DNA of 64,000 bases from the NCBI RefSeq assembly GCF_000337575.1, contig NZ_AOIM01000007.1, positions 1 to 64,000 on the forward strand, in the 5' to 3' direction. The notes under the pieces were generated by a model. It searched no databases. It was given only the letters and a program-made list of their open reading frames with translations, and was not told the origin of the DNA. A program made the translations under genes and the position numbers. Below are positions 13,574 to 40,503 of the stretch, piece after piece (the stretch's first letter is position 1; every line of letters begins with the position of its first letter). The stretch is from Natrialba hulunbeirensis JCM 10989. GTDB taxonomy: Archaea > Halobacteriota > Halobacteria > Halobacteriales > Natrialbaceae.

Positions 13574-14765
13574 CGTCTATATCTGTCTCAATAGAAAGTT
13601 CGATATCGGGAAGTCGAGTCGCTTCGTACAGTCTAGCGGTCAGGGTGGCGGGATCAGGATTATTGCGTGACATTTCCATCGTTTCTGGATCAAGCGTTCG
13701 CCGGAACTGCTCTTCTAACCACCATTTTTGGAGGTCCCTGGCGTCATCAGCGAAAACGTCTAGAACATACGCCATCTCGATTCCCGTGCAATTATACGGG
13801 TAGCCGTAGGGATTCTTGTCGAGTTGGTCTTTGAATCGTTCACTTCGGGCATACGCGAGCGCCCGTTCGAATTTTTCGTGTCCCCAGAACGGATGATTCG
13901 GGAAGTATTCGTGGAGTACCGCGAAGGCGTACATATTGAACGAATGGTAGCCGACTGACGTTTCTTTCATCGGGTCGCCTTCTTCACCGCCGACAATTGC
14001 CTGTGCCACGTTCGAAACCATTTTGTGCGCAACACCAGAACGGACGCCCTCGGCAAATATTTTCGCGTACTTTTTGATGTCGAACTCCGGTTTGAACGGG
14101 TGGAATATCAACCCAGACGGATAGAGATTCAGGTTGTCCGGGAGTTCCTCGAGGAATCGTCGGACTTGTTCTTCGACGATTGGACTCGCCTCGGTGTGAT
14201 CAGCAAGGAGTGCACCGGCCATTGCAAACCATAACTGGTGGTTGAATGTCTTGTCGAGGGATTGGAATTCGCCATCGATATCAACGTATTTCCACGCCGC
14301 GAGTTCCTCGTCGAATGGATGGAGGAGAAACACTTCCTCTGCAAGCGCAACCAACTCCGGCCGGTCGAAGTATTCTGCTGCTTCGACCAGCGCCTCGATG
14401 GTCCACGCTTGTCCGATCAATCCGTTGCAGCGGGATTTCTCGTGCTCGCGTAGGTGGTAGAAGGTTTCTTCATAGGGACGGACTTCATTTGATTTCAAAT
14501 ACGAAATTATTGACTCTGCTACCTCCCGATGAGCTTGGACCTCATTTCTTTTCAAACAGTATATTGCGGTTATTAGGGCATGAGATGAATTTCTAACCGA
14601 TGTCTGTGGATTCTTCCAAGGCCCATTTAGCCCTGCTGGGAACTTCCCGTCTGTTTCTAAATCGTCAATATGATTTTCTATAGAGCCAACCAGTACCTCA
14701 TCTAGTATTGTTTCTGTATTCCCTACCATTCTTTTGCTAGTAATATACCTCACGGCGATAGTCAT
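13563..14765 (-). CDS. AglQ-like alpha/alpha-barrel protein
   Basis: A 400-residue soluble protein resembling the haloarchaeal AglQ family, which is needed for N-glycan assembly and has an (alpha/alpha)6-barrel glycosidase- or epimerase-like fold. Features visible are the GKFPAGLNGPWKNPQTSVRN start region, HLREHEKSRCNGLIGQAWTIEAL, FNHQLWFAMAGALL and SVGYHSFNMYAF blocks. No signal peptide is evident. An internal ATG (codon 13, 14729) is a plausible alternative start. Downstream it is coupled to a GT2 gene. I am fairly sure of the family and unsure of the biochemical step. Confidence 0.75.
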   Translation of the reverse strand: MTIAVRYITSKRMVGNTETILDEVLVGSIENHIDDLETDGKFPAGLNGPWKNPQTSVRNSSHALITAIYCLKRNEVQAHREVAESIISYLKSNEVRPYEETFYHLREHEKSRCNGLIGQAWTIEALVEAAEYFDRPELVALAEEVFLLHPFDEELAAWKYVDIDGEFQSLDKTFNHQLWFAMAGALLADHTEASPIVEEQVRRFLEELPDNLNLYPSGLIFHPFKPEFDIKKYAKIFAEGVRSGVAHKMVSNVAQAIVGGEEGDPMKETSVGYHSFNMYAFAVLHEYFPNHPFWGHEKFERALAYARSERFKDQLDKNPYGYPYNCTGIEMAYVLDVFADDARDLQKWWLEEQFRRTLDPETMEMSRNNPDPATLTARLYEATRLPDIELSIETDIDDDN

Positions 14766-14950
14766 GAAAGTTATTATCCGCGCACACTTCGTTCACTGGA
14801 ATATAAGCAGACCATCATTTGATTGCATTGTATTTACAAACTAATCTGCTTTCAAACCGCCCGTGAAGCCTCTGTGTGCTTAATATTGGAGGTGGGCTAA
14901 ATTCGGAATGCACTATATGTCAACAACTGTTTAGCGATTTCGTGAATGGT

Positions 14951-14958
14951 TTATATTA
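14951..14958 (+). promoter_or_regulatory. TATA box of the GT4 gene
   Basis: TTATATTA is centred 24 nt upstream of ATG 14978, consistent with a leaderless transcript. Confidence 0.6.
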
Positions 14959-14977
14959 GAATCCACTTGTTGTAGCC

Positions 14978-16078
14978 ATGGTTTCGCATATTGCTATTTA
15001 TAATGGCCAATTATCTGCTGGCGGAGCTAATAGAATGTTATTCCATATTTCTGATCACTTAACAAAAAAAGGCTACAATGTTGACTTTTTAGTTTCTAAT
15101 GCGTCTGGAGATTTTGCAGACAAAGTTCCTGAAGGAGTATCGCTCATCAATTTAAAGTCAGATCGGGAGTTAGCATCGTTACCGAAGATAAGTAGATACC
15201 TAAGAAAGACCGAGCCGGATATTCTTCTCTCAACAACCCACTCGTCAATTGTTATTGCTCACCTTTCACTCATAATTTCCAACTGCGAGACTGAAATGAT
15301 TTCCCGTCAAGGAACGGTTCTCACCAAACACTTTGAAAACCAAGACGGAATTAAAAACAAAATTGTATATGAGTTAATGAAGCACCTGATACCAAGAGCA
15401 GACAAAGTAATAGCAATTTCAGAGGGGGTTAAGACCGATCTCGTTCAATGTACTGGATTATCTGAATCCGACATCTCCGTCATCTATAACCCTGCAATTA
15501 CCTCTGTAGCGGACATCGAACAGAAAGCACAAGAAGAAACCGAACATCCATGGCTATCACAAAAAGACAATCCAGTTATATTAGGTGCGGGAAGGTTAGT
15601 CCAACAAAAGGGATTTTCAACTCTATTACGGGCTTTCAAATCTATTACTGACACAAGGGACTGTCGACTTATTATTTTAGGCGAAGGCGAAGACCGAGGA
15701 AAGTTGGAAAATTATGCCAAAGAGTTGGGAATATATGATTTAGTGTCTCTCCCTGGTTACATTGATAACCCATATTCATATATGGGATCTGCCGATGTTT
15801 TTGCATTGTCCTCTGAATGGGAAGGCTTTGGTATCGTTCTCGTTGAAGCGATGGCCTGTGGAACGCCTGTAGTGTCTACTGACTGTGAAAGTGGCCCTGA
15901 GGAAATATTAGAAAACGGTCGATTTGGACCGCTGGTCAATGTCGGTAATTATGAGCAACTAGCTGATTCTATACAGGATATGCTTGACGATCCTATCCCT
16001 GGATCAATGCTGAAACAAAGAGCTGAAGATTTCGATTTAGATAATGTACAACAGTATGAAGAGATCATATACGAATGA
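14978..16078 (+). CDS. Glycosyltransferase, family 4
   Basis: A 366-residue GT-B fold enzyme. The N-terminal acceptor domain starts IYNGQLSAGGANRMLFHISD; the C-terminal donor domain has GAGRLVQQKGFSTLLRAF, then LPGYIDNPYSYMGSADVFAL and the EX7E-type SSEWEGFGIVLVEAMACGTP with VSTDCESGPEEIL. The gene is markedly AT-rich compared with flanking genes, with many AAA and ATA codons, suggesting transfer from a lower-GC source. It is followed immediately by the polymerase-like gene. Confidence 0.9.
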   Translation: MVSHIAIYNGQLSAGGANRMLFHISDHLTKKGYNVDFLVSNASGDFADKVPEGVSLINLKSDRELASLPKISRYLRKTEPDILLSTTHSSIVIAHLSLIISNCETEMISRQGTVLTKHFENQDGIKNKIVYELMKHLIPRADKVIAISEGVKTDLVQCTGLSESDISVIYNPAITSVADIEQKAQEETEHPWLSQKDNPVILGAGRLVQQKGFSTLLRAFKSITDTRDCRLIILGEGEDRGKLENYAKELGIYDLVSLPGYIDNPYSYMGSADVFALSSEWEGFGIVLVEAMACGTPVVSTDCESGPEEILENGRFGPLVNVGNYEQLADSIQDMLDDPIPGSMLKQRAEDFDLDNVQQYEEIIYE

Positions 16079-17431
16079 ATGAGAAAGTCCAATTGTGTCC
16101 CGCGAACCACATCGTCTATGAGTAATCCACACTATTCACAAGGCATGACTAACATCAAGAATTTATCCCTAATATCTGGTCTTTTTTATATTTTGATTGT
16201 TGCGGGAACCTTTGTTTTGTTAGTGTATTTGGGAGAGATGGAATTTTATAACATAGAGTTCAATGGGGCGAAACATCTATACCCGGTAGTTCCTCTCGCA
16301 GTTTTGTCTGCTATCCCACTAATTACTATGCCTGAAGAAATAAAATCTCCTTCTGACTTAATTATATGGTCTGTATATATGCTAATGTATGTGCCCTCAA
16401 TAGTCACATCGCCATATGTTATATCTTCTAATGGTCATACTCTGTTGATAATATCGATACTGACCTTCTGTATGATTTTTCTTGGTGGGAATTTATTCCC
16501 CCAATTGGTTGTCAGACCAAGACCAAGTGTATCTGGAAATGTTTTTTGGATATTCATTTTATTGATAGGGTTCTTTATAGCATTTACTACAGTATTATCC
16601 CTGGATTATAGTCCAGGAATACCAACAAGTACACAAGAGATCTACCAGCTCCGGACTGCGTATTCAGCGACGATATCCGAACTTAGTCCAATCCAATATA
16701 ATATTGTTCATCGAGGTGTATTTTCACTTAACTATGTTGTACTCCCTACTATTCTAATATATTCTTTAATTACTAAAAAGAAGGCATATCTCTTATTATC
16801 GCTTCTTGGATGGTTATGTATATTTATATTCCTTGGTTTACAGGCAGCACTATTGATACCATTAATGATTATTTGCTTGTTCCTCATACTATCCTATTTT
16901 AGTTATGTAGTTCCATTTGTTGTGATTGGTGTGCTTCTTGGCGCTATTTTTTCGCTCATTCTATATATGATGGGGAACAGTTGGTTTCTGCACTCCTATA
17001 GGAGAATAATATTTGTCCCGCCAATAGCAGCGAATTACTATTTTGAATTCTTCTACATGAATGATAAGATTTATTTGCTGGGTAACACTCTTGGTTATTA
17101 TCCTTATGAACAGAATCATTTATACTTAGTTAGTGAACAATTTGATCCAGGCGCTTCTGCTACAGGGAACCCATGGGGTGTCGGATATGCAAGGTTTGGT
17201 ATCATTGGAATAATCCTTTTCACTATTTTATTGAAGATATTACTAACAATTATAGATTCGCTATCTCAGGATATTGACTCAAACCAATCAATATTACTTA
17301 TTGCAGCCTTCACATTCCCTATCACTAATAGTGGTCTTCTAACGGTACTAACGTTCCACGGAATGGCACTAATTATAGTAGTACTATATCTATTACCATG
17401 GAGAACGTATGAATATAAATTAAGTGATTGA
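16079..17431 (+). CDS. O-antigen-polymerase-like membrane protein
   Basis: A protein of up to 450 residues with about 11-12 hydrophobic segments and a larger polar loop (residues ~315-370) before the last spans, the usual shape of Wzy-type oligosaccharide-unit polymerases. No conserved catalytic motif can be read with confidence, so the name rests on topology and on the neighbours. It abuts the GT4 stop (TGAATG). The first 13-22 codons are not membrane-like, so starts at ATG 16118 or 16145 are also possible. Strongly AT-rich. Confidence 0.65.
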   Translation: MRKSNCVPRTTSSMSNPHYSQGMTNIKNLSLISGLFYILIVAGTFVLLVYLGEMEFYNIEFNGAKHLYPVVPLAVLSAIPLITMPEEIKSPSDLIIWSVYMLMYVPSIVTSPYVISSNGHTLLIISILTFCMIFLGGNLFPQLVVRPRPSVSGNVFWIFILLIGFFIAFTTVLSLDYSPGIPTSTQEIYQLRTAYSATISELSPIQYNIVHRGVFSLNYVVLPTILIYSLITKKKAYLLLSLLGWLCIFIFLGLQAALLIPLMIICLFLILSYFSYVVPFVVIGVLLGAIFSLILYMMGNSWFLHSYRRIIFVPPIAANYYFEFFYMNDKIYLLGNTLGYYPYEQNHLYLVSEQFDPGASATGNPWGVGYARFGIIGIILFTILLKILLTIIDSLSQDIDSNQSILLIAAFTFPITNSGLLTVLTFHGMALIIVVLYLLPWRTYEYKLSD

Positions 17432-17451
17432 TAAATATACTGTGCGAACTA

Positions 17452-18000
17452 CTAGATTGAGTCCCCTTGGTTGAGTGACTCGGCCGGCGGTTGATCAACA
17501 AGTGTTTGATGACTTCGGTGGCGGTTGTGGTAGCGGTGTAGGCAGCCAGCCCGCGCTCGGCGCTGACTTGACTACCGTTTCAGGTTTTATGGAATCGTTG
17601 AATTCGCATTGTATAGGTCTGAAGAGCATTTCTACGAGGTTGCGGTCAGTGTAGTTGAGATTGCCGTCGAGATCGTGCTTGTAGGCGGTTAGATAGCCTA
17701 TCCCATCAACGAGAAACTCCACGTTGGAGACGCAGTATTTCTTCTTTGAGTTTGCTGAGGACGCGTTCAGCCGGGACTCAACCCTTGTGTCTCGAAAAGC
17801 GTGTATGCAGTACGACTTTTGAATCAACATCGATTGCCGCGTAGAGCCACGTTTTCTGTTCATTTTCGAGTTGAATCTGTTTTCATCGATAGCGACACGC
17901 TCTGGCTTAGCGGTGAAATTGTTTTCGTAGGAGTCGCCGTAGTCTAATACCAGCGCTGGATCGTAGCTCGGCGTCTGTTGACGCCGAACCATTCACGGTA
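17452..18000 (-). pseudogene. IS6-family transposase, frameshifted remnant
   Basis: Pieces of a haloarchaeal IS6-type DDE transposase appear in different minus-strand frames: FGVNRRRATIQRWY, then ERVAIDEN, KTWLYAAIDVDSKVVLHTR in another frame, VEFLVDGIGYLTA, GNLNYTDRNLVEMLF and a terminal HRSHQTLVDQPPAESLNQGD ending at a stop near 17452. Several frameshifts are needed to join them, so it is dead. No terminal inverted repeats were found by eye. It separates the two AT-rich halves of the glycan locus. Up to 18202 nothing else is visible. Confidence 0.8.
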
Positions 18001-18202
18001 GTCTCGAAATTCCGCTAATGAAGCGGCTCTAGCATGAGTAGCGTACGTCAGCCTGATCAGCTAGGCTGGCTGTGTGCGTCCGATAACTATCCAAAAACGT
18101 CACATCATAGGAGCTCGTTACGTCAATCTGGTGTTCTTTGAACAGCATGTTCCTATTTCCCTCGAAGAACTCCGTTCCATTCAATCCCAATCTAGCAGTG
18201 CC

Positions 18203-19618
18203 TCACCGGATGACATCCCGTGCCTGTTCAACAGTCTTCATTCTTAGAGGCGAATACAGCAAAACAAATGCACTATATAAAGTTGCACCTACGAATACAT
18301 ACCCTGCCAAGTGAATGACCGTAGTTATTTCAATCCAGTTATTTGCTATGTGGAGTGAAAAATACATTGCGAGTGACGATAGTAGACACCAGCCGAGTTC
18401 ATAATAGGGCACTCGGATAGAAATTATCTTTGATAAGTAATAAGTTCGATGTATTGTACCGATGGTCATAGAGAGCGTCGTTCCTAAAGCGGCTCCCAAG
18501 ATCCCAAAATGCCATATGAGAATGATATTTAGTACAAGATTAGCAATGATATCCACGAGAGCAGCATGTGTAACCAAATCAGGCCGATTCAAGCCAAGGA
18601 GCGATTTGCCCACGATTTGTCTAATAGCTCGGGGGAGTTTTCCCGCTAAAAGGATGATAAGTGCTAACCAAGCGGCTGTGAACTCTTGACCGAAAATCAA
18701 ACCAAGTATTTCTTCCGATAATAGAATCCCTCCAAAGAACGCAGGGAATACAAATACGAGTGATGGTGTAATAATTTTTGGTAGTAGTCTTTCAAGTGAC
18801 TCTTTCGAATCTTCTGACTCCCAGGAGCTAATCTGGGGAAAAATAGTGGTTCCAATTGCACTCGTAAGTAGCAAAACAGGTCCAGCCACACGCCATGCAA
18901 TTTCATATGCCCCGACAGCTGCTTGAGTGACGAAGAATCCGATGATCAAAATATCCATCCAATTATGGACTTGCCCATCAATTTCAGGGATAATGCTATA
19001 CTTGGCATAATCAACCAGAGAACGGGCCTGAGTGATCGTTGGTTGACCAATACCAACTGATGTCTTACAGATCGCCCAAGCGAGTTGAACCCCTTTCCCA
19101 ACGATCACACCATACACGAGTCCGAAAACACCAAAATCAAACTGAACAAGAAGAACTCCGAGACCGACCCATGTGAAAGAATATGCAAATTGAAGAGTAG
19201 CTGTTTCTCCAACGCGGAGTTCCCCTTTCAGTACATTCATCATCAGCTCTGCTGATTCCTGTAGAATAATTGTAATAATAAGCAGTCCGGCGACATTTGC
19301 ACCAATATACTGATTGAGATATGATTGAAAAACAAGGATACTACCCGTGACCAGCAAGAGTAGTGTTGCCTTCAAAACAATAGCAGTTCCTATAATTTGA
19401 TCTGCAGGACCACCCTCGCTGATTCGTTTTTCAACAGCAATCCGGGTACCTAAGTTAGCCGGAAGTTCAGAGACAGCGAGTACTGCTTGGAACAAAAAAA
19501 AGATGCCAAGTAGTCTTGCCCCCAACTCTTGTGCAAAAAATGCTGTACCAACAAAAGTCAGCAGGAGACTGCCGACTCTTGCTGCGGCAATTTTAAGACT
19601 AGACCGAGCAACGTTCAT
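18203..19618 (-). CDS. Oligosaccharide flippase (Wzx/MATE-like)
   Basis: A 471-residue integral membrane protein with about 14 hydrophobic spans beginning ARVGSLLLTFVGTAFFAQELG and PANLGTRIAVEK, the pattern of polysaccharide-biosynthesis flippases of the MOP superfamily. Such proteins move lipid-linked oligosaccharides to the outer face of the membrane, which fits the surrounding transferases. It is convergent with the polymerase-like gene across the IS remnant, and 35 bp downstream of the asparagine-synthase-like gene. A TATA-like element at about 19638-19645 suggests its own promoter. Confidence 0.88.
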   Translation of the reverse strand: MNVARSSLKIAAARVGSLLLTFVGTAFFAQELGARLLGIFFLFQAVLAVSELPANLGTRIAVEKRISEGGPADQIIGTAIVLKATLLLLVTGSILVFQSYLNQYIGANVAGLLIITIILQESAELMMNVLKGELRVGETATLQFAYSFTWVGLGVLLVQFDFGVFGLVYGVIVGKGVQLAWAICKTSVGIGQPTITQARSLVDYAKYSIIPEIDGQVHNWMDILIIGFFVTQAAVGAYEIAWRVAGPVLLLTSAIGTTIFPQISSWESEDSKESLERLLPKIITPSLVFVFPAFFGGILLSEEILGLIFGQEFTAAWLALIILLAGKLPRAIRQIVGKSLLGLNRPDLVTHAALVDIIANLVLNIILIWHFGILGAALGTTLSMTIGTIHRTYYLSKIISIRVPYYELGWCLLSSLAMYFSLHIANNWIEITTVIHLAGYVFVGATLYSAFVLLYSPLRMKTVEQARDVIR

Positions 19619-19653
19619 GGTATAGGTAACTCAATCATTAAAAATTTAGTGGT

Positions 19654-21513
19654 TTATTTAAGGTCCAATGAGGATTTCAATACTGTTATTAGTGTATAAA
19701 GTTGATTCGTGTAATTTTCACCGTTAACATGATCCTGATAGCATTGCTGAACTCCATCAAAATCTAAATATGGTGAAGAGCGAATACGATCCTCATTTTG
19801 TGATATTATTTCTTTGACAAATGGATCCGATCGAATTAGTGTAGCATGGTTAATCCACGGTCCACCGTCATCAATAACATCTCCATCGCTGAAAGAAGAC
19901 ACTCTTTCTTTTATCTTGCTCTGGAGTGCAGACTTTTTTCTACGATAGTGTTTTGCATAACTGGGATAATGAAGAGGAAGATCGTAATCGGGATGAGGAA
20001 TAGAGGCTAGGTCTGGATTGAGTTCTGGCAGTGCAGTTTCAACTATATTTTGTCTATATCGGTATGAACTTGGTATTTGGAGTACCAAATCAATAATGCG
20101 GTTATCTAAGAAGGGATACCTTGTAGGAAGCATTTGATTAAGTGTTTCATAAAATGTAAACGTTTTAACATTTGTTAATGGATATATTATGCCATACTCA
20201 ACTAACGCCCTCCATGAGGAATACTCAACACCATGGTTTTGAATTGTGTTCTCACCGTGGGATAAACGCTTTCTGAAGGAATTTTGTGGACTTAATTCAC
20301 TTTTCAAATATGGTAACGGAGAGTTATAGTCCCCTACCTCCCCTCTGTTCATTGCCTCAACATATGCTGGCGGGGAATCTATTGGACGAGGCTGTGATAA
20401 TGGGTACAGATGTCTCAAAACTGGATACGATGCAAATTTTCTTGGAACATATGTCCCACCTAAAATTGTATCACTGTATTGCCCACAGATTATTTGGTCA
20501 ACTTGGCCAGTTATTTCATCAATAAAGCCAGTAGCATGAGCATGCTGGGGATGCCCATTGAAGTTTGTAATCTCAGTTGTCTTTTCAAATACAGTCGGGT
20601 AATATCTCTCATCCCGCAGTAGGAATTGGAAATCTTGGGAAATATTTTCTGCTACTTGTTTCGCTGTCTGGGCTTCAGTATTCCCATCCAATTGTTCGTT
20701 CATGTGGAACGCTGTGACATCCCTTTCTAACGTGTCCAAGAGTAATCTCGAGTCTGCACCGCCGCTGAGTAACAGCCCCTGTTTTTGGTCTTGACTCTCA
20801 CGTTCGCGTACTGCATTTTGGAAAATACTTTTAAATTTATCAACACACTCAGAAAACGAATAGTTTTGCTCAGATGGTACTGGCCACCAGTACTTACGAC
20901 TATTAACACGCTCTCCACTCATATCAAATGTAATGATAGATGCTGGCGATATCTTTTTTACTCCTTTTGCGGGTGTATGTATGCCGAAGGCACGGCTATA
21001 CATGAGAAATTCTCCGAGGAACTCTGGATCTGCTTTCAAACTAATATCTGGATGAACAGCAAGCGATTGTAGAAGGGAGGAAAACACAAGAGTTCCGTTT
21101 GAGGTACGTGTGTAGTAGATTGGTCTAGATCCCAATCGATCCGTGAATAGCGATACTGTCTTGGATTTGTGATCATAGATAACTCCTGAAAATTCGCTAT
21201 TCAGACCTGTGATGAAGTTCAGGCCGTATTCCTCATATAAATCGGCACAGAATTCTGCCTCGTTAGTGCTATCTGGACGTGGAGTATACTGACCTTTACA
21301 TTCGCAGCCAATTATATCCCCCCAACACCATATTGAGATGTCATCCGTGGTTACTGGCTGTTCTTTAAAATTAATATCATGATCTGAATTCCCAATAGCC
21401 ACGTAATCATCTCTATATGTAGACTGAATTTGGGACTCAGTCCAGCAAATAGCATCTGTGAGAGTATCTATTTTAGAGTCTTGCGAGCCAATGACACCAC
21501 AGATACCAACCAT
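19654..21513 (-). CDS. Asparagine-synthase-like amidotransferase without Cys2
   Basis: A 619-residue protein with an N-terminal class II glutamine amidotransferase-like domain (to ~190; FTDRLGSRPIYY, LVFSSLLQSL) and a C-terminal asparagine-synthase ATP-pyrophosphatase domain with GLLLSGGADSRLLLD. The start at ATG 21513 fits a TATA box 25 nt upstream; a GTG lies one codon earlier. It begins MVGICGVIG, so the catalytic N-terminal Cys of canonical MCGI enzymes is replaced by Val, with a Cys only at residue 5. Glutaminase activity is therefore doubtful. In glycan loci such proteins may amidate sugar acids or peptides; the substrate is unknown. Confidence 0.8.
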   Translation of the reverse strand: MVGICGVIGSQDSKIDTLTDAICWTESQIQSTYRDDYVAIGNSDHDINFKEQPVTTDDISIWCWGDIIGCECKGQYTPRPDSTNEAEFCADLYEEYGLNFITGLNSEFSGVIYDHKSKTVSLFTDRLGSRPIYYTRTSNGTLVFSSLLQSLAVHPDISLKADPEFLGEFLMYSRAFGIHTPAKGVKKISPASIITFDMSGERVNSRKYWWPVPSEQNYSFSECVDKFKSIFQNAVRERESQDQKQGLLLSGGADSRLLLDTLERDVTAFHMNEQLDGNTEAQTAKQVAENISQDFQFLLRDERYYPTVFEKTTEITNFNGHPQHAHATGFIDEITGQVDQIICGQYSDTILGGTYVPRKFASYPVLRHLYPLSQPRPIDSPPAYVEAMNRGEVGDYNSPLPYLKSELSPQNSFRKRLSHGENTIQNHGVEYSSWRALVEYGIIYPLTNVKTFTFYETLNQMLPTRYPFLDNRIIDLVLQIPSSYRYRQNIVETALPELNPDLASIPHPDYDLPLHYPSYAKHYRRKKSALQSKIKERVSSFSDGDVIDDGGPWINHATLIRSDPFVKEIISQNEDRIRSSPYLDFDGVQQCYQDHVNGENYTNQLYTLITVLKSSLDLK

Positions 21514-21537
21514 CACTTTTGGGAAATTCGTTTAGGG

Positions 21538-21545
21538 ATATAAAT
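21538..21545 (-). promoter_or_regulatory. TATA box of the asparagine-synthase-like gene
   Basis: ATTTATAT on the minus strand lies 25 nt before ATG 21513 and supports a leaderless transcript and that start. Confidence 0.6.
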
Positions 21546-21600
21546 TGACCGAAAGACTTCAGGTGGATATGTACTTCCCCGTCAATTCACAGACTGCGTT

Positions 21601-21888
21601 TCACTCGATATCATTTAACTCGAGCTCACCCGCTAAATACGCTTTCCCCTCCGTAGTGAGATGATAGTAGCCTGCCTCGTCAACCTTCTCTAGCAGCCCG
21701 TGCTTCTCGAGTTCTTTCAATCGTTGTCGAACAGTCGAATAGCCGATTTCGTGCCCGTGGCGGTTGAGATTTCGATAGAGTGGCTTTGCTGGGAGTTCGA
21801 GGTCGTGCTCGTCGAGGAACTCGAGTATAAGCCCATCTTTCAGCGACATCCACTCTGGACGAGGACGCATTCGACGGAGTTCTCCCAC
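21601..21888 (-). CDS. Winged-helix regulator (phage PhiH1 repressor-like)
   Basis: A 95-residue winged-helix protein. MRPRPEWMSLKDGLILEFLDE, KPLYRNLNRHGHEIGYSTVR and RQRLKELEKHGLLEKVDEAGYYHLT form helices 1-3 and the wing. The pattern is that of small haloarchaeal regulators often annotated as PhiH1 repressor-like. It stands alone on the minus strand. The start could be any of MGELRR or the next two Met codons. Confidence 0.75.
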   Translation of the reverse strand: MGELRRMRPRPEWMSLKDGLILEFLDEHDLELPAKPLYRNLNRHGHEIGYSTVRQRLKELEKHGLLEKVDEAGYYHLTTEGKAYLAGELELNDIE

Positions 21889-22097
21889 GGGCGGGCATTA
21901 ACGTGATTTGGTTTCTCGAAATGATAGCGTGAGTACGATACTTCTGTAGCATAAATACGCTAGAATAAAGTACGTAGAGTTGTTAGCAAGTTGTACGGAA
22001 GCACCGGTTCAGACGCGTCGCTCAGAATCTGGAAGTAGCGGACCGGTGGGGCAAACACCAGTCCGCGAACAGCCTCCGTAACCCGACTACGGAAGCC

Positions 22098-36324: not shown

Positions 36325-37944
36325 TTAGGCTCCGGCCCAGACGTTCGTTGCGGAGACGGCTCCGAACTGAACGTTTTCGTTCTCCTGGAGGGTCACCTGT
36401 GCAGCGTCAGCGCTGCCACCGTCGTCGGCAATGGCGACTGCGGCCTGCTGCTGGTTGACGTTCTCCTGAAGGACGTACTGGATCTGCTGGATCTGGGCGG
36501 TTGCGTCCTGCTCAACGTCGTTGGTCTGCTGTGCGTCGGTGTCGAACGCGATACCAGGTGCACCCTCGACATCACCGCCACCAAGCGTCATGCTGGTGGT
36601 CTCGGAGTGGATGGTGCTGTCGTGGACGTAGCCGGGCCCGGCGTAGACGTTCAGCGCATCGGCGAAGCCGATCTGTGCGTTGAGGTTCTGCTGGTGGGCA
36701 AGCTGGACTGCGGTGGCGTCACTGCCGTTGGTGGCCCACGCGATCGCGGAACTCTGCAGGTTCACGTTCATCTGCTCGACCTCCTGAGCCTGAGCGACGC
36801 CGGAGGTGGCGGTCTGTGCGTCACCGTCGGCAGCGCCCTTCTTGTGGTGGTCCTTGTCCTTCTTGTCGTCGTGCTTCTTGTCGTCCTTCTTATCGTCGTG
36901 CTTATCGTCGTGCTTCTTGTCGTCGTACTTCTTCTCGTCCGCCTTCTCATCGAGCCCGCTCACTGCCTGTGCGGTGTCTTCCATCGCAGCGGCGTCATCG
37001 ACACCGCTCGTCGCGATGTTCATGCCGGCGAGCGAGGCGAAGACGCTCGAGGCGTCTGCGGCACCGATCTGCTCGTTGAAGTTCGACTGTTCGGTAAGCT
37101 GGATTGCCGTTGCGGTGCTGTTTTCACCGACGGCGATCGCAACTGCGGCATCCTGCTGGTTGACGTTCTCCTGGTAGGCCGCCTGCTCCTGGTTGACCGT
37201 CGCGTCAGCGGACTGGTCCATGAAGTCACCGCCACCAGCGTAGACGTTCGTCGCGTTCGCGACTCCCTGCTGGAGGTTCTGGTTCGTCTGGTGGGACTGC
37301 TGGATTGCGAGCGCTTCGCTCTCGTTGTCCGCGAGGGCGAACGCAGTGCTCTGCTCGTTGTAGTTCAGCTGACCGACGAGCTGGCTCTGGGTCACTTCGG
37401 CTTCGGCGACCTGATCGGCGTCGGTATCAACGTCATCCTTGTGTCCCTTCTTGTCGGCAATACCCCAGCCGTCGAACTGCTTGCCGTCACCGTTGCCGAG
37501 GACGACGTTGACGGTGCCGACGTCGTCGAAGGTGGTCACCTGACCAGCGTCAGTCTCCGCGAGCGCTTCGGCGAACTGCTCGTTGTCGTTGTACTGGTTT
37601 GCTTCCTGCACCGCAGTCGCCTCGCCACCGTCAATCGAGATTGCGGTCGCGTTCGACTGCTGGTTGATGTTCACCTGTTCAACATCCTGGTACTGGTTCA
37701 CCGTCGCATCGGCTTCACCGCCGACGTGGGCTTCGATGTACTCATCGAGTGTCATCCCGTCGAGTTCGGCACCGAAGACCAGATACAGTTCTTCACCGTT
37801 CTCAAGCGCGTGGACGTCTCCGCTTGTACTCACGTCCTCGCCAGCTGCTGCTGCGGGGGCGCCCACTGCGAGCATTGATAGGGCGACGATACACGCCATC
37901 AGGACGGTCGTATACTGTGACCGTCTCGTTGTTGTGTTACTCAT
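36325..37944 (-). CDS. Secreted Q/N-rich repeat protein, curlin-like
   Basis: A 539-residue protein with a signal peptide (cleavage near residue 34). About five imperfect 40-50-residue repeats carry a ladder of Gln, Asn and Ala: NVNQQQAAVAIADDGG, ATAIQLTEQSNFNEQIG, AVQLAHQQNLNAQIGFADAL. The spacing Q-x-N-x5-Q with alternating small hydrophobic residues resembles curlin (CsgA/CsgB) repeats and could build a beta-solenoid amyloid fibre. Between the third and fourth repeats lies a Lys/Asp/His-rich linker (~335-372). Domains end in NVYAG or NVWAGA. No CsgG or CsgE homologue is visible. A convergent secreted protein of similar composition is encoded at 38589. The amyloid idea is inference. Confidence 0.8.
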   Translation of the reverse strand: MSNTTTRRSQYTTVLMACIVALSMLAVGAPAAAAGEDVSTSGDVHALENGEELYLVFGAELDGMTLDEYIEAHVGGEADATVNQYQDVEQVNINQQSNATAISIDGGEATAVQEANQYNDNEQFAEALAETDAGQVTTFDDVGTVNVVLGNGDGKQFDGWGIADKKGHKDDVDTDADQVAEAEVTQSQLVGQLNYNEQSTAFALADNESEALAIQQSHQTNQNLQQGVANATNVYAGGGDFMDQSADATVNQEQAAYQENVNQQDAAVAIAVGENSTATAIQLTEQSNFNEQIGAADASSVFASLAGMNIATSGVDDAAAMEDTAQAVSGLDEKADEKKYDDKKHDDKHDDKKDDKKHDDKKDKDHHKKGAADGDAQTATSGVAQAQEVEQMNVNLQSSAIAWATNGSDATAVQLAHQQNLNAQIGFADALNVYAGPGYVHDSTIHSETTSMTLGGGDVEGAPGIAFDTDAQQTNDVEQDATAQIQQIQYVLQENVNQQQAAVAIADDGGSADAAQVTLQENENVQFGAVSATNVWAGA

Positions 37945-38588
37945 GTTTCACTTGATCTGAGCCGTGAGAGTCTTTTGTTTCTGTATCTCCACGGCGCAAA
38001 CCTTCGTATCCTGATGACAGACTTTGTTATCTGGTTGTTGTCGAACTGATGGAAGGGCCTACTGAACGGAAGACGGCGACTTCTCCCCCGAATGGAGTGC
38101 TTTCGACGGTGGTAGCCGTCGGAACGGCTGACCGCCTGCATCCGGTTAGAGCAGTGTCTGCGGACGCACAACCAATCTGTTCGAACCCGTTGCACCTGAA
38201 CCGTCACCGATCGATGATTGTTACAGCGACCAAAGCAGGACGTTACCGTCCTCAAAACAGTCACCCCGTTCCTGTGTTTGGGTGCACTCATCTGTTGCAA
38301 CCGTTCAATGGGCGCTCAACGGCGGGACTGAGAGACCGCCGTATCGGTCCGGAGAAACACGCGTTTCAGCAAGGTGTAGGATGGCTCACAGAGCGATAGT
38401 TTCGGCTTCAATCGCGCTAATCGGAGTATTCGACGTGAAACCGTTGTTCGGGTTGAAGTAGTCCTCGCTGTTGTGTTGTGACCGGGCAACGCGCCACAGC
38501 AGTCGGGGTTCACCAGTGGCTTGGCCACTGAACTCGTCGTCACGAGCGGCCCCGGTCAGCCGTGGAGCGTGCCTCAGGATTACAACAC
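37945..38588. other. Divergent intergenic region between two secreted Q/N proteins
   Basis: A 644-bp spacer without a credible gene. The two flanking genes diverge from it, so it should hold both promoters. Frames in it (e.g. minus strand 37941-38300) are Arg/Ser-rich and lack any family feature. No clear TATA box was identified. Confidence 0.45.
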
Positions 38589-39008
38589 ATGAAGCGAACA
38601 CTCGCAATTACACTGACGGTAGCGCTCATTGGCAGCCTCATGTTCATGGGGTTCGCCGGCACGGCAGCAGCACAGAACGACGTCGATCAAGAGACGGGTG
38701 ATGCGAGCGTCGATATCAGCATTGATCAGGACAACAACAACGCACAGGTAGGCATCGCTGAGTCGTACTCCAGTTCGTTCGCCCTCGGCGCATCGGCCTC
38801 TGACAGCAAGTGGGGCACCTCGACCGGCGCATCCTCCTTCAGTGCCTCTAACGCTGAAGTGAACCAGAACCAGTTCAGTGTCCAGAGTAACAACGCGAAC
38901 GTTGAGGGCGTGACAGCTGAGAGCGGTGACAACGTCAACATCGGCGACATTGACATCGGCTTTGATGACGACGACAACGGTAACGGCGATGTCGCCATCC
39001 TCGGCTAA
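38589..39008 (+). CDS. Secreted Ser/Asn-rich acidic protein
   Basis: A 139-residue protein with a signal peptide (MKRTLAITLTVALIGSLMFM, cleavage after AAA near residue 28). The mature part contains Q/N blocks (EVNQNQFSVQSNNANVEGV; SIDQDNNNAQVGIAES) and a C-terminal Asp/Asn-rich IDIGFDDDDNGNGD tail. Its composition resembles the curlin-like protein transcribed away from the same spacer, so it may be a minor or nucleating subunit. Start at ATG 38589. Confidence 0.7.
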   Translation: MKRTLAITLTVALIGSLMFMGFAGTAAAQNDVDQETGDASVDISIDQDNNNAQVGIAESYSSSFALGASASDSKWGTSTGASSFSASNAEVNQNQFSVQSNNANVEGVTAESGDNVNIGDIDIGFDDDDNGNGDVAILG

Positions 39009-39105: not shown

Positions 39106-40503
39106 CTATTTCTCGTGCAATTCCTCAGAAGCAATCTGTTCAGCCCGTTCTACGATCGTTCGAATAGATGTGCTCGCTTCAGACGCAACAGCCGCAGCCT
39201 CGTCGTACTCTGCACTCACGTCGTACACCTCACCGTCACTATCGCGGGCGATTTTGACAGTCACCTCGTAGCGCTCACCTCCGACTTCCATCGCCACCGT
39301 CTCGAACTCACGGTCGGCAATCCAGCGGTGGGTCACACCCGAATCACGAACCCCCAACGTACCGGTCTCCTCCGCGAGCCGCCGTGCAACCCGCGTTCGG
39401 TCCTCGGGCTTACAAATCACCTTCACCAGATGGCCGGGTCGGGACTTCTTCATCGTCGCCGGGAGAATCGAAACGTCTCGTGCACCCACCTCAGCCAGGG
39501 TGTCCTGCAGGCCGCCGAGTACCTCCGGCGTCGCGTCGTCGAGGTTTGTCTCGAGTACCGCGATCTCATCCTTGTACAATCCGCCGGTTCCCTCGCCGAC
39601 CAGCACTCGTAGCACGTTCGGGTGGGGATCGAGGTCGTACCCGCCAGCGCCGTAGCCGGCGGCCGTCACGTCGAGTTCGGGGAGCGAGTCGACGCCGTCG
39701 GCGAGGTGTGCGAGGATGGCCGCGCCAGTGGGTGTGAGCAGTTCTGCGTCGACAGGCCCACCGCGAAGCGCCCAGTCTGCTTCCTGGGCAATTTCGACGA
39801 CCGCAGGTGCGGGAATCGGATACTCACCGTGGGCCATCGTGGCCGTCCCGCCGCCGGTCGACAGTGGCGTGGTGACGATGCGGTCCGGCGCGAGATCGTG
39901 AACCAGCGCCGTCGCCCCGACGATGTCCGCGATGGCGTCGTCTGCTCCGACCTCGTGAAAGTGAATGGACTCGAGTGCCTCGCCGTGGACGCTGGCCTCG
40001 GCTTCACCGAGGCGTTTGAAGATAGCGAGTGCGTCGCGTTCGACGGGGTCGGGGAGGGCCATGTTTTCGACGATGGTGCGGACGTCGGTGTAGCTGCGGT
40101 GGGGGCCGTGTCCTTCGGCGTGGGTGTGGGTATGGGTATGCTCGTGATCGTCGTGTGTGTGCTCGTGTACGTGGTCATGGTGGGTGTGGGTATGCTCGCG
40201 GTCGTGCTCGTGATCGGCCTCATCATGGCTGTGATCCGCGTGACTGTGGTCGTGGTCGTGTTCGTGCCCATGCCCATGCGCCTCGTCGTCCGCATCGTCA
40301 TGCCCATCGTATTCCCCAGTCAGCACCACATCCACCGTCGTCCCCGAAATCCCACACCGAACCGTCTCGTCGATCTGATACGCGACATCGAGTTCGTCCG
40401 TGATGGACTCGAGTACGTCCGGGTCAGCGCCAGCATCCAGTAAGGCAGCGAGGATCATGTCGCCGCTTGCGCCCATGCGGCCGTCGAAGGCGAGAACGTT
40501 CAT
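39106..40503 (-). CDS. larC: Nickel-pincer cofactor biosynthesis protein LarC
   Basis: A 465-residue protein of the LarC family, which inserts nickel into the pyridinium-dithiocarboxylate precursor of the cofactor of lactate racemase-type enzymes. N-terminal GRMGASGDMILAALLDAG, FHEVGADDAIADIVG and TPTGAAIL, and C-terminal LETNLDDATPEVLGGL, KKSRPGHLVKVI are present. A ~60-residue His-rich region (residues ~68-135) interrupts the N-terminal part and could store or deliver nickel. It is a single frame, without the programmed frameshift known in some bacteria. No larA, larB or larE is in this window. Confidence 0.92.
   Translation of the reverse strand: MNVLAFDGRMGASGDMILAALLDAGADPDVLESITDELDVAYQIDETVRCGISGTTVDVVLTGEYDGHDDADDEAHGHGHEHDHDHSHADHSHDEADHEHDREHTHTHHDHVHEHTHDDHEHTHTHTHAEGHGPHRSYTDVRTIVENMALPDPVERDALAIFKRLGEAEASVHGEALESIHFHEVGADDAIADIVGATALVHDLAPDRIVTTPLSTGGGTATMAHGEYPIPAPAVVEIAQEADWALRGGPVDAELLTPTGAAILAHLADGVDSLPELDVTAAGYGAGGYDLDPHPNVLRVLVGEGTGGLYKDEIAVLETNLDDATPEVLGGLQDTLAEVGARDVSILPATMKKSRPGHLVKVICKPEDRTRVARRLAEETGTLGVRDSGVTHRWIADREFETVAMEVGGERYEVTVKIARDSDGEVYDVSAEYDEAAAVASEASTSIRTIVERAEQIASEELHEK

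Follow-up and report, generated by a model that had tools for sequence, protein, structure and literature searches.

A conserved family of secreted five-repeat proteins in Natrialbaceae, candidate subunits of amyloid-like fibres

Introduction

Curli and Fap are functional amyloids built from imperfect repeats. The curli repeat is 23 aa long, its units are contiguous (22–24 aa) and its core motif is N-x-Psi-x-Psi-x-Q (PMC10192328). The FapC fibre of Pseudomonas consists of long imperfect repeats, one layer each, every layer having a core that measures about 52 aa or longer; the linkers comprise about 30 to 260 residues, and conserved Asn/Gln hydrogen bonds hold the fibre (PMC12392863). The number of FapC repeats is three, almost universally, according to a survey of curli and Fap, which sought those two operons and in the part consulted reports only bacterial phyla (PMC12822426).

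With respect to archaea, one unnamed protein with curli-like repeats was recorded by Dueholm in 2012 (PMC3521004), amyloid sheaths were described in two methanogens, and Haloferax biofilms were reported in 2014 to bind amyloid dyes, the candidate gene being only tentative (PMC4180959). The sheath proteins MspA and SH of Methanosaeta and Methanospirillum are archaeal, signal-peptide-bearing, amyloid-like surface proteins, as P0001 described below may be, and are set apart from it by tubular sheaths and by the Cys bridges proposed to link their subunits (PMC6242892, PMC10593813). Here we describe a divergent pair of genes from the haloarchaeon Natrialba hulunbeirensis JCM 10989, which a first-pass annotation had read as encoding secreted Q/N-rich proteins, one with curlin-like repeats. 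No description of the family was found in the literature.

Results

The gene pair was analysed within a stretch of 64,000 nucleotides (contig NZ_AOIM01000007.1, positions 1 to 64,000), referred to as the window. Both open reading frames were confirmed at the positions annotated. P0001 (36325–37944, minus strand) encodes a secreted five-repeat protein of 539 aa and P0002 (38589–39008, plus strand) a secreted Q/N-rich partner of 139 aa; the two diverge, as annotated, from a shared spacer of 644 bp (37945–38588) between both start codons, with conserved blocks adjoining each gene. Sequence and alignment bear out the signal peptide claimed for the large protein, which is of the Sec type, occupies residues 1–34 (37843–37944, minus strand) and ends APAAAAG; a twin arginine within it is not conserved in the alignment, and it holds the sole Cys of P0001. 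The signal peptide of P0002 ends GTAAA. Because of its homologues, the start of P0002 was placed at the ATG at 38589 and not at the GTG at 38562. Comparison with Natrialba orthologues indicated purifying selection on both genes, with Ka/Ks of 0.15–0.21 for P0001 and 0.21–0.37 for P0002. A 554-aa open reading frame antisense to P0001 was rejected as a spurious high-GC frame.

The neighbours of the pair are DUF4330, LarC-type nickel insertion and CDC48 genes, and the LarC-type and CDC48 ATPase genes adjoin the pair in many genera. The LarC-type protein (39106–40503, minus strand) has a very His/Asp-rich insert. Convergent with P0001 lies P0003 (35856–36161, plus strand), a small secreted acidic protein that could belong to the same system; in several further genera (loci L024, L026, L028 and L029) similar genes for small secreted proteins lie downstream of the large one. 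Matches of P0002 and P0003 to NCBIfam were below cut-off. Elsewhere in the window, positions 14001–22000 have a GC content of 0.40–0.44 as against about 0.60 around, and are possibly an integrated element. The nearest named relatives of the genome are Natrialba sp. SSL1, N. chahannaoensis and N. asiatica.

Upstream of P0001 is a long conserved 5' region (37942–38048, minus strand), in which conservation runs to the ATG. It includes the element GATAACAAAGTCTGTCATC (38013–38031, minus strand), about 70–87 nt upstream of the ATG, which is kept in nearly all Sec-type homologues and has a single genomic copy at up to three mismatches; the ATAACAAAG-type element is invariant across many genera. No RNA structure was predicted for the leader, so the GATAACAAAGTCTGTCATC region probably acts either as a binding site for a protein or as a leader without structure. 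The leader matched no Rfam family, and a sigma-70 scan of the region, not meaningful for archaea, gave no match. Haloarchaeal mRNAs are often leaderless, so a conserved leader here would be unusual.

Downstream of the signal peptide, P0001 carries an N-terminal module, ENGEELYLVFGAELDGMTLDEYIEAH (about residues 44–73; 37726–37815, minus strand), with near-invariant residues in an alignment of 60 members. The annotation had counted about five repeats; there are exactly five units of about 57 aa, each with an A and a B half. On the minus strand they lie at 37543–37707 (repeat 1, residues 80–134), 37237–37407 (repeat 2, residues 180–236), 37036–37209 (repeat 3, residues 246–303), 36640–36810 (repeat 4, residues 379–435) and 36340–36504 (repeat 5, residues 481–535). 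The A halves begin at residues 80, 182, 248, 381 and 483, and the B halves at residues 109, 211, 278, 410 and 512. Repeats 3 and 4 are joined by a K/D/H-rich charged linker (about residues 333–372; 36829–36948, minus strand), which is of variable length in homologues. The pattern Q...Q.N.N.Q occurs 10 times in P0001, whereas 1000 shuffles held 0.00 copies on average, and the short regular spacing of Gln and Asn given in the annotation is likewise real, Q/N recurring at spacings of 2 (z = 7.6), 4, 6 and 8.

Statistics for the unit were drawn from 300 units in 60 non-redundant homologues, with the consensus A.A.v.Q.Q.V.Q.N.N.Q..A.AiA..gs.AtA.Q...Q.N.N.Q.g.A.A.Nv. Conservation falls on alternate residues only (odd positions 1–19, even 22–26 and even 32–54), and Q or N is found in 98–100% of units at positions 7, 9, 13, 15, 36, 40, 42, 44 and 46. 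Such a pattern is characteristic of strands that stack and face inward. All 60 members have five units, of 52–58 aa, separated by successive linkers of 37–48, 5–70, 30–78 and 33–73 aa (5 to 78 overall), which are D/G/K-rich rather than Q/N-rich. When 393 genomes of the phylum were searched for the unit by its profile, matches came only from large proteins of the P0001 family, with five units per protein in all 15 matching genomes, one of which (G007) has ten units in two genes. P0001 combines the sequence features expected of a functional amyloid: secretion, regular imperfect repeats, and Asn/Gln at conserved positions. A lone fifth-repeat fragment lies beside other genes (L033:5617–5895) in a genome with a complete copy elsewhere, and looks like a pseudogene remnant.

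The structure of P0001 was predicted with AlphaFold2. The full protein, modelled from the 60-sequence alignment, gave a mean pLDDT of 57, with repeats at about 60–78 and all strand (strands of 16–21 residues) and low-confidence linkers. Repeats 2–3 alone gave a mean pLDDT of 75.5 and no helix, with strands of 20, 6 and 26 residues per unit and a pTM of 0.47. The helical or globular fold that would have told against the annotation was absent from the prediction. With a pTM of only 0.45–0.47 in the two models, the arrangement of the repeats in them is tentative. When the two-repeat model was compared with 350,542 PDB chains by Foldseek, the top three were FapC 9u4u (E 0.03), FapC 9nqd (E 0.05) and E. 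coli CsgA 8enq (E 0.46), and FapC also led the list obtained with the full model. With the two-repeat model, beta-solenoid Suf proteins and HET-s-type prions appeared at lower ranks. No match was significant: for the top three the probability did not exceed 0.07 nor the TM 0.17, and the rmsd was 23–30 Angstrom; the amino-acid term of Foldseek may simply reward Q/N-rich sequence. Given this poor superposition, the matches give a hint on fold class only.

The label curlin-like did not stand. Like CsgA and CsgB, P0001 and P0002 are a large and a small secreted protein with an alternating Q/N strand logic. The curlin profile PF07012, however, matched neither of them, its best score in the whole genome being 13.2 bits in another protein (cut-off 20.7); the core motif of curlin occurs in P0001 in 0 copies and the QxGxxN arc in one, the same as in shuffles. 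A search of the genome for CsgG gave no match at E<=10, with control genomes positive, in agreement with the annotation of a system lacking this exporter. Membership of the curlin family is excluded by the profile, the core motif, the absence of CsgG and a unit of 57 aa with linkers between units.

The layout of P0001 is nearer to that of FapC, with imperfect Q/N-rich long repeats, variable linkers and a nearly fixed repeat number. FapC differs in having three units rather than five, and P0001 in its two-half Q...Q.N.N.Q consensus and its one-membrane archaeal host. Against the one cross-beta Greek-key layer per repeat of FapC, the P0001 unit has three predicted strands, and the Foldseek match is weak (E 0.03, probability 0.07). 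A profile search of the PDB with the whole of P0001 and with the unit returned a PhoQ fragment and other spurious matches only, with no FapC chain up to E=10, and Pfam gave no match. With five repeats and the neighbours described above, the locus also departs from the fapABCDEF layout with its three-repeat subunit. The design is the same without detectable sequence homology, which makes P0001 analogous to FapC and not a member of its family.

Homologues of P0001 were found in 99 of 125 Natrialbaceae genomes, representing 26 of 29 genera. Across the class, 87 of 392 genomes matched at E<=0.001, nearly all of them Natrialbaceae; strong matches outside the family were few (three other families; Haladaptatus and Halomicrococcus plasmids). 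In Natronorubrum bangense, gene copies on the chromosome and on a plasmid (L155 and L156) have equal match scores, which suggests recent duplication or transfer. Among 60 representatives, 39 have no anchor, 13 have a PGF-CTERM tail (a C-terminal PGF motif and a transmembrane tail) and eight have a twin-arginine (Tat) signal. The PGF-CTERM sorting tail, known from haloarchaeal surface proteins, is thus shared by a subset of homologues and absent from P0001 itself; NCBI names two anchored homologues PGF-CTERM proteins and the other homologues listed hypothetical. These anchors and Tat signals support export of the family, as the annotation proposed. The export and anchor signals change independently while the repeat body is constant, a good if indirect indication that this body functions on the outer side of the membrane.

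Of the 84 loci whose upstream sequence was long enough, 52 had a small, divergently oriented gene for a secreted Q/N-rich protein, usually about 450–730 bp from the large gene and sometimes in two or three tandem copies. The search pattern was strict and missed some, for example two in L036; with the same pattern none was found at the Tat-type loci L037, L040, L121 and L123–L127. In the small proteins, conservation is much stronger in the signal peptide, MKRxLxxxLTVAxIGSLxFMGFAGTAAA, than in the mature part. Several of them were matched directly by the profile of the large protein (per-genome E up to 4.5e-11), and with the unit profile 65 of 73 scored sequences did better than 99% of their shuffles. 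P0002 carries an apparently degenerate single repeat, with Q.N.N.Q.G and V.Q.Q halves; it scored 10.3 bits, equalled by none of 200 of its own shuffles, and as the best of these reached 9.1 its kinship with the unit is probable rather than strong. A permuted repeat, modelled as two tandem units, gave no gain (5.1 bits, with three of 200 shuffles as good).

Two features of the DNA around P0002 were also noted. Over the region coding for its signal peptide (38589–38672), Ks was about 0.05, compared with 0.28–0.56 in the mature part, measured over few sites against three Natrialba relatives; this hints at constraint on the DNA or RNA itself. Upstream, at 38400–38480, a block CTAATCGGAGTATTCGCCGTGAAACCGTTGTTCGGGTTGAAGT is conserved in five Natrialba genomes and is a possible regulatory site.

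Discussion

The reading that we prefer, and to which we give an even chance, is that P0001 is a secreted five-layer beta-arch protein, most likely polymerising into surface or matrix fibres. Its basis is the repeats, their conservation pattern, the gene pair, the export signals and the anchored variants, all read from sequence, together with the beta structure predicted for the repeats. We infer stacking, polymerisation, surface location and the role of the small protein along the following lines. P0001 would be a structural protein exported by Sec; since archaea have a single membrane, the usual Sec (or Tat) route is enough, and CsgG is not strictly needed. Each 57-aa unit would form one long beta-arch, with a strand A of ~20 residues, a short strand and a strand B of ~24 residues, in which Gln, Asn and Ala at alternate positions would point into the core. 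The five repeats may stack as five layers from which the flexible charged linkers loop out, as in FapC, and through the open ends one molecule could stack on the next, giving amyloid-like fibres on the cell surface or within the matrix. PGF-CTERM homologues would hold the same structure tethered to the cell, and the role of the small divergent protein, with its putative degenerate version of a single unit, may be capping, nucleation or co-polymerisation.

The Tat signal of eight homologues speaks against fibres, since Tat carries folded proteins and would suit a monomer folded beforehand better than one that polymerises outside. The main rival is a non-polymerising beta-solenoid, a stiff capped rod acting as stalk, adhesin or S-layer-associated spacer with the YLVFGA N-terminal module as its functional head. 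We consider it rather unlikely, though a folded tethered monomer would suit both the Tat-exported and the PGF-CTERM-anchored homologues, the fixed repeat number suggests a fixed length, and the non-repeat N-terminal module is highly conserved. Most members, 39 of the 60, have no anchor, the nearest structural matches, though weak, are subunits of fibres, and FapC also has a fixed repeat number and yet polymerises (PMC12822426).

An intrinsically disordered, low-complexity secreted protein rich in Q/N and charge and lacking ordered beta structure, such as a matrix polymer that binds water or ions, appears improbable. Neither the strict alternate-residue conservation nor the near-invariant length of 300 units would be expected of it, although AlphaFold2 confidence is only moderate and the linkers are D/K/G-rich and predicted with low confidence. 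It is more doubtful still that the small protein is a secreted, halocin-like peptide effector with the large protein as carrier or immunity partner: this would fit the tandem small copies seen in several genomes, whose mature part changes fast beside a frozen signal peptide, but the repeat of the large protein recurs in the small ones, the NCBIfam 'ocin' match reached 15.2 bits against a cut-off of 40, and no self-protection gene was seen. Transfer of a true curli system (CsgA/CsgB-like) to haloarchaea is scarcely credible, for the Q/N-rich repeats, alternating pattern and large and small secreted pair that recall it come without curlin profile match, core motif, 23-aa contiguous unit or CsgG.

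Returning to the fibre reading, it may be proposed, more tentatively, that the family adds to curli and Fap a third functional amyloid of imperfect repeats, evolved independently and the first from haloarchaea. It would consist of two genes, rely on ordinary Sec export, occur in released, anchored and Tat versions, and have a divergent one-unit partner as nucleator or cap. The P0001 family offers a concrete and widely conserved candidate in Natrialbaceae for a haloarchaeal amyloid, and the unit profile can be used for screening archaeal genomes. If the reading is true, the long-repeat amyloid design arose outside bacteria as well, and would work without an outer-membrane exporter and in near-saturated salt.
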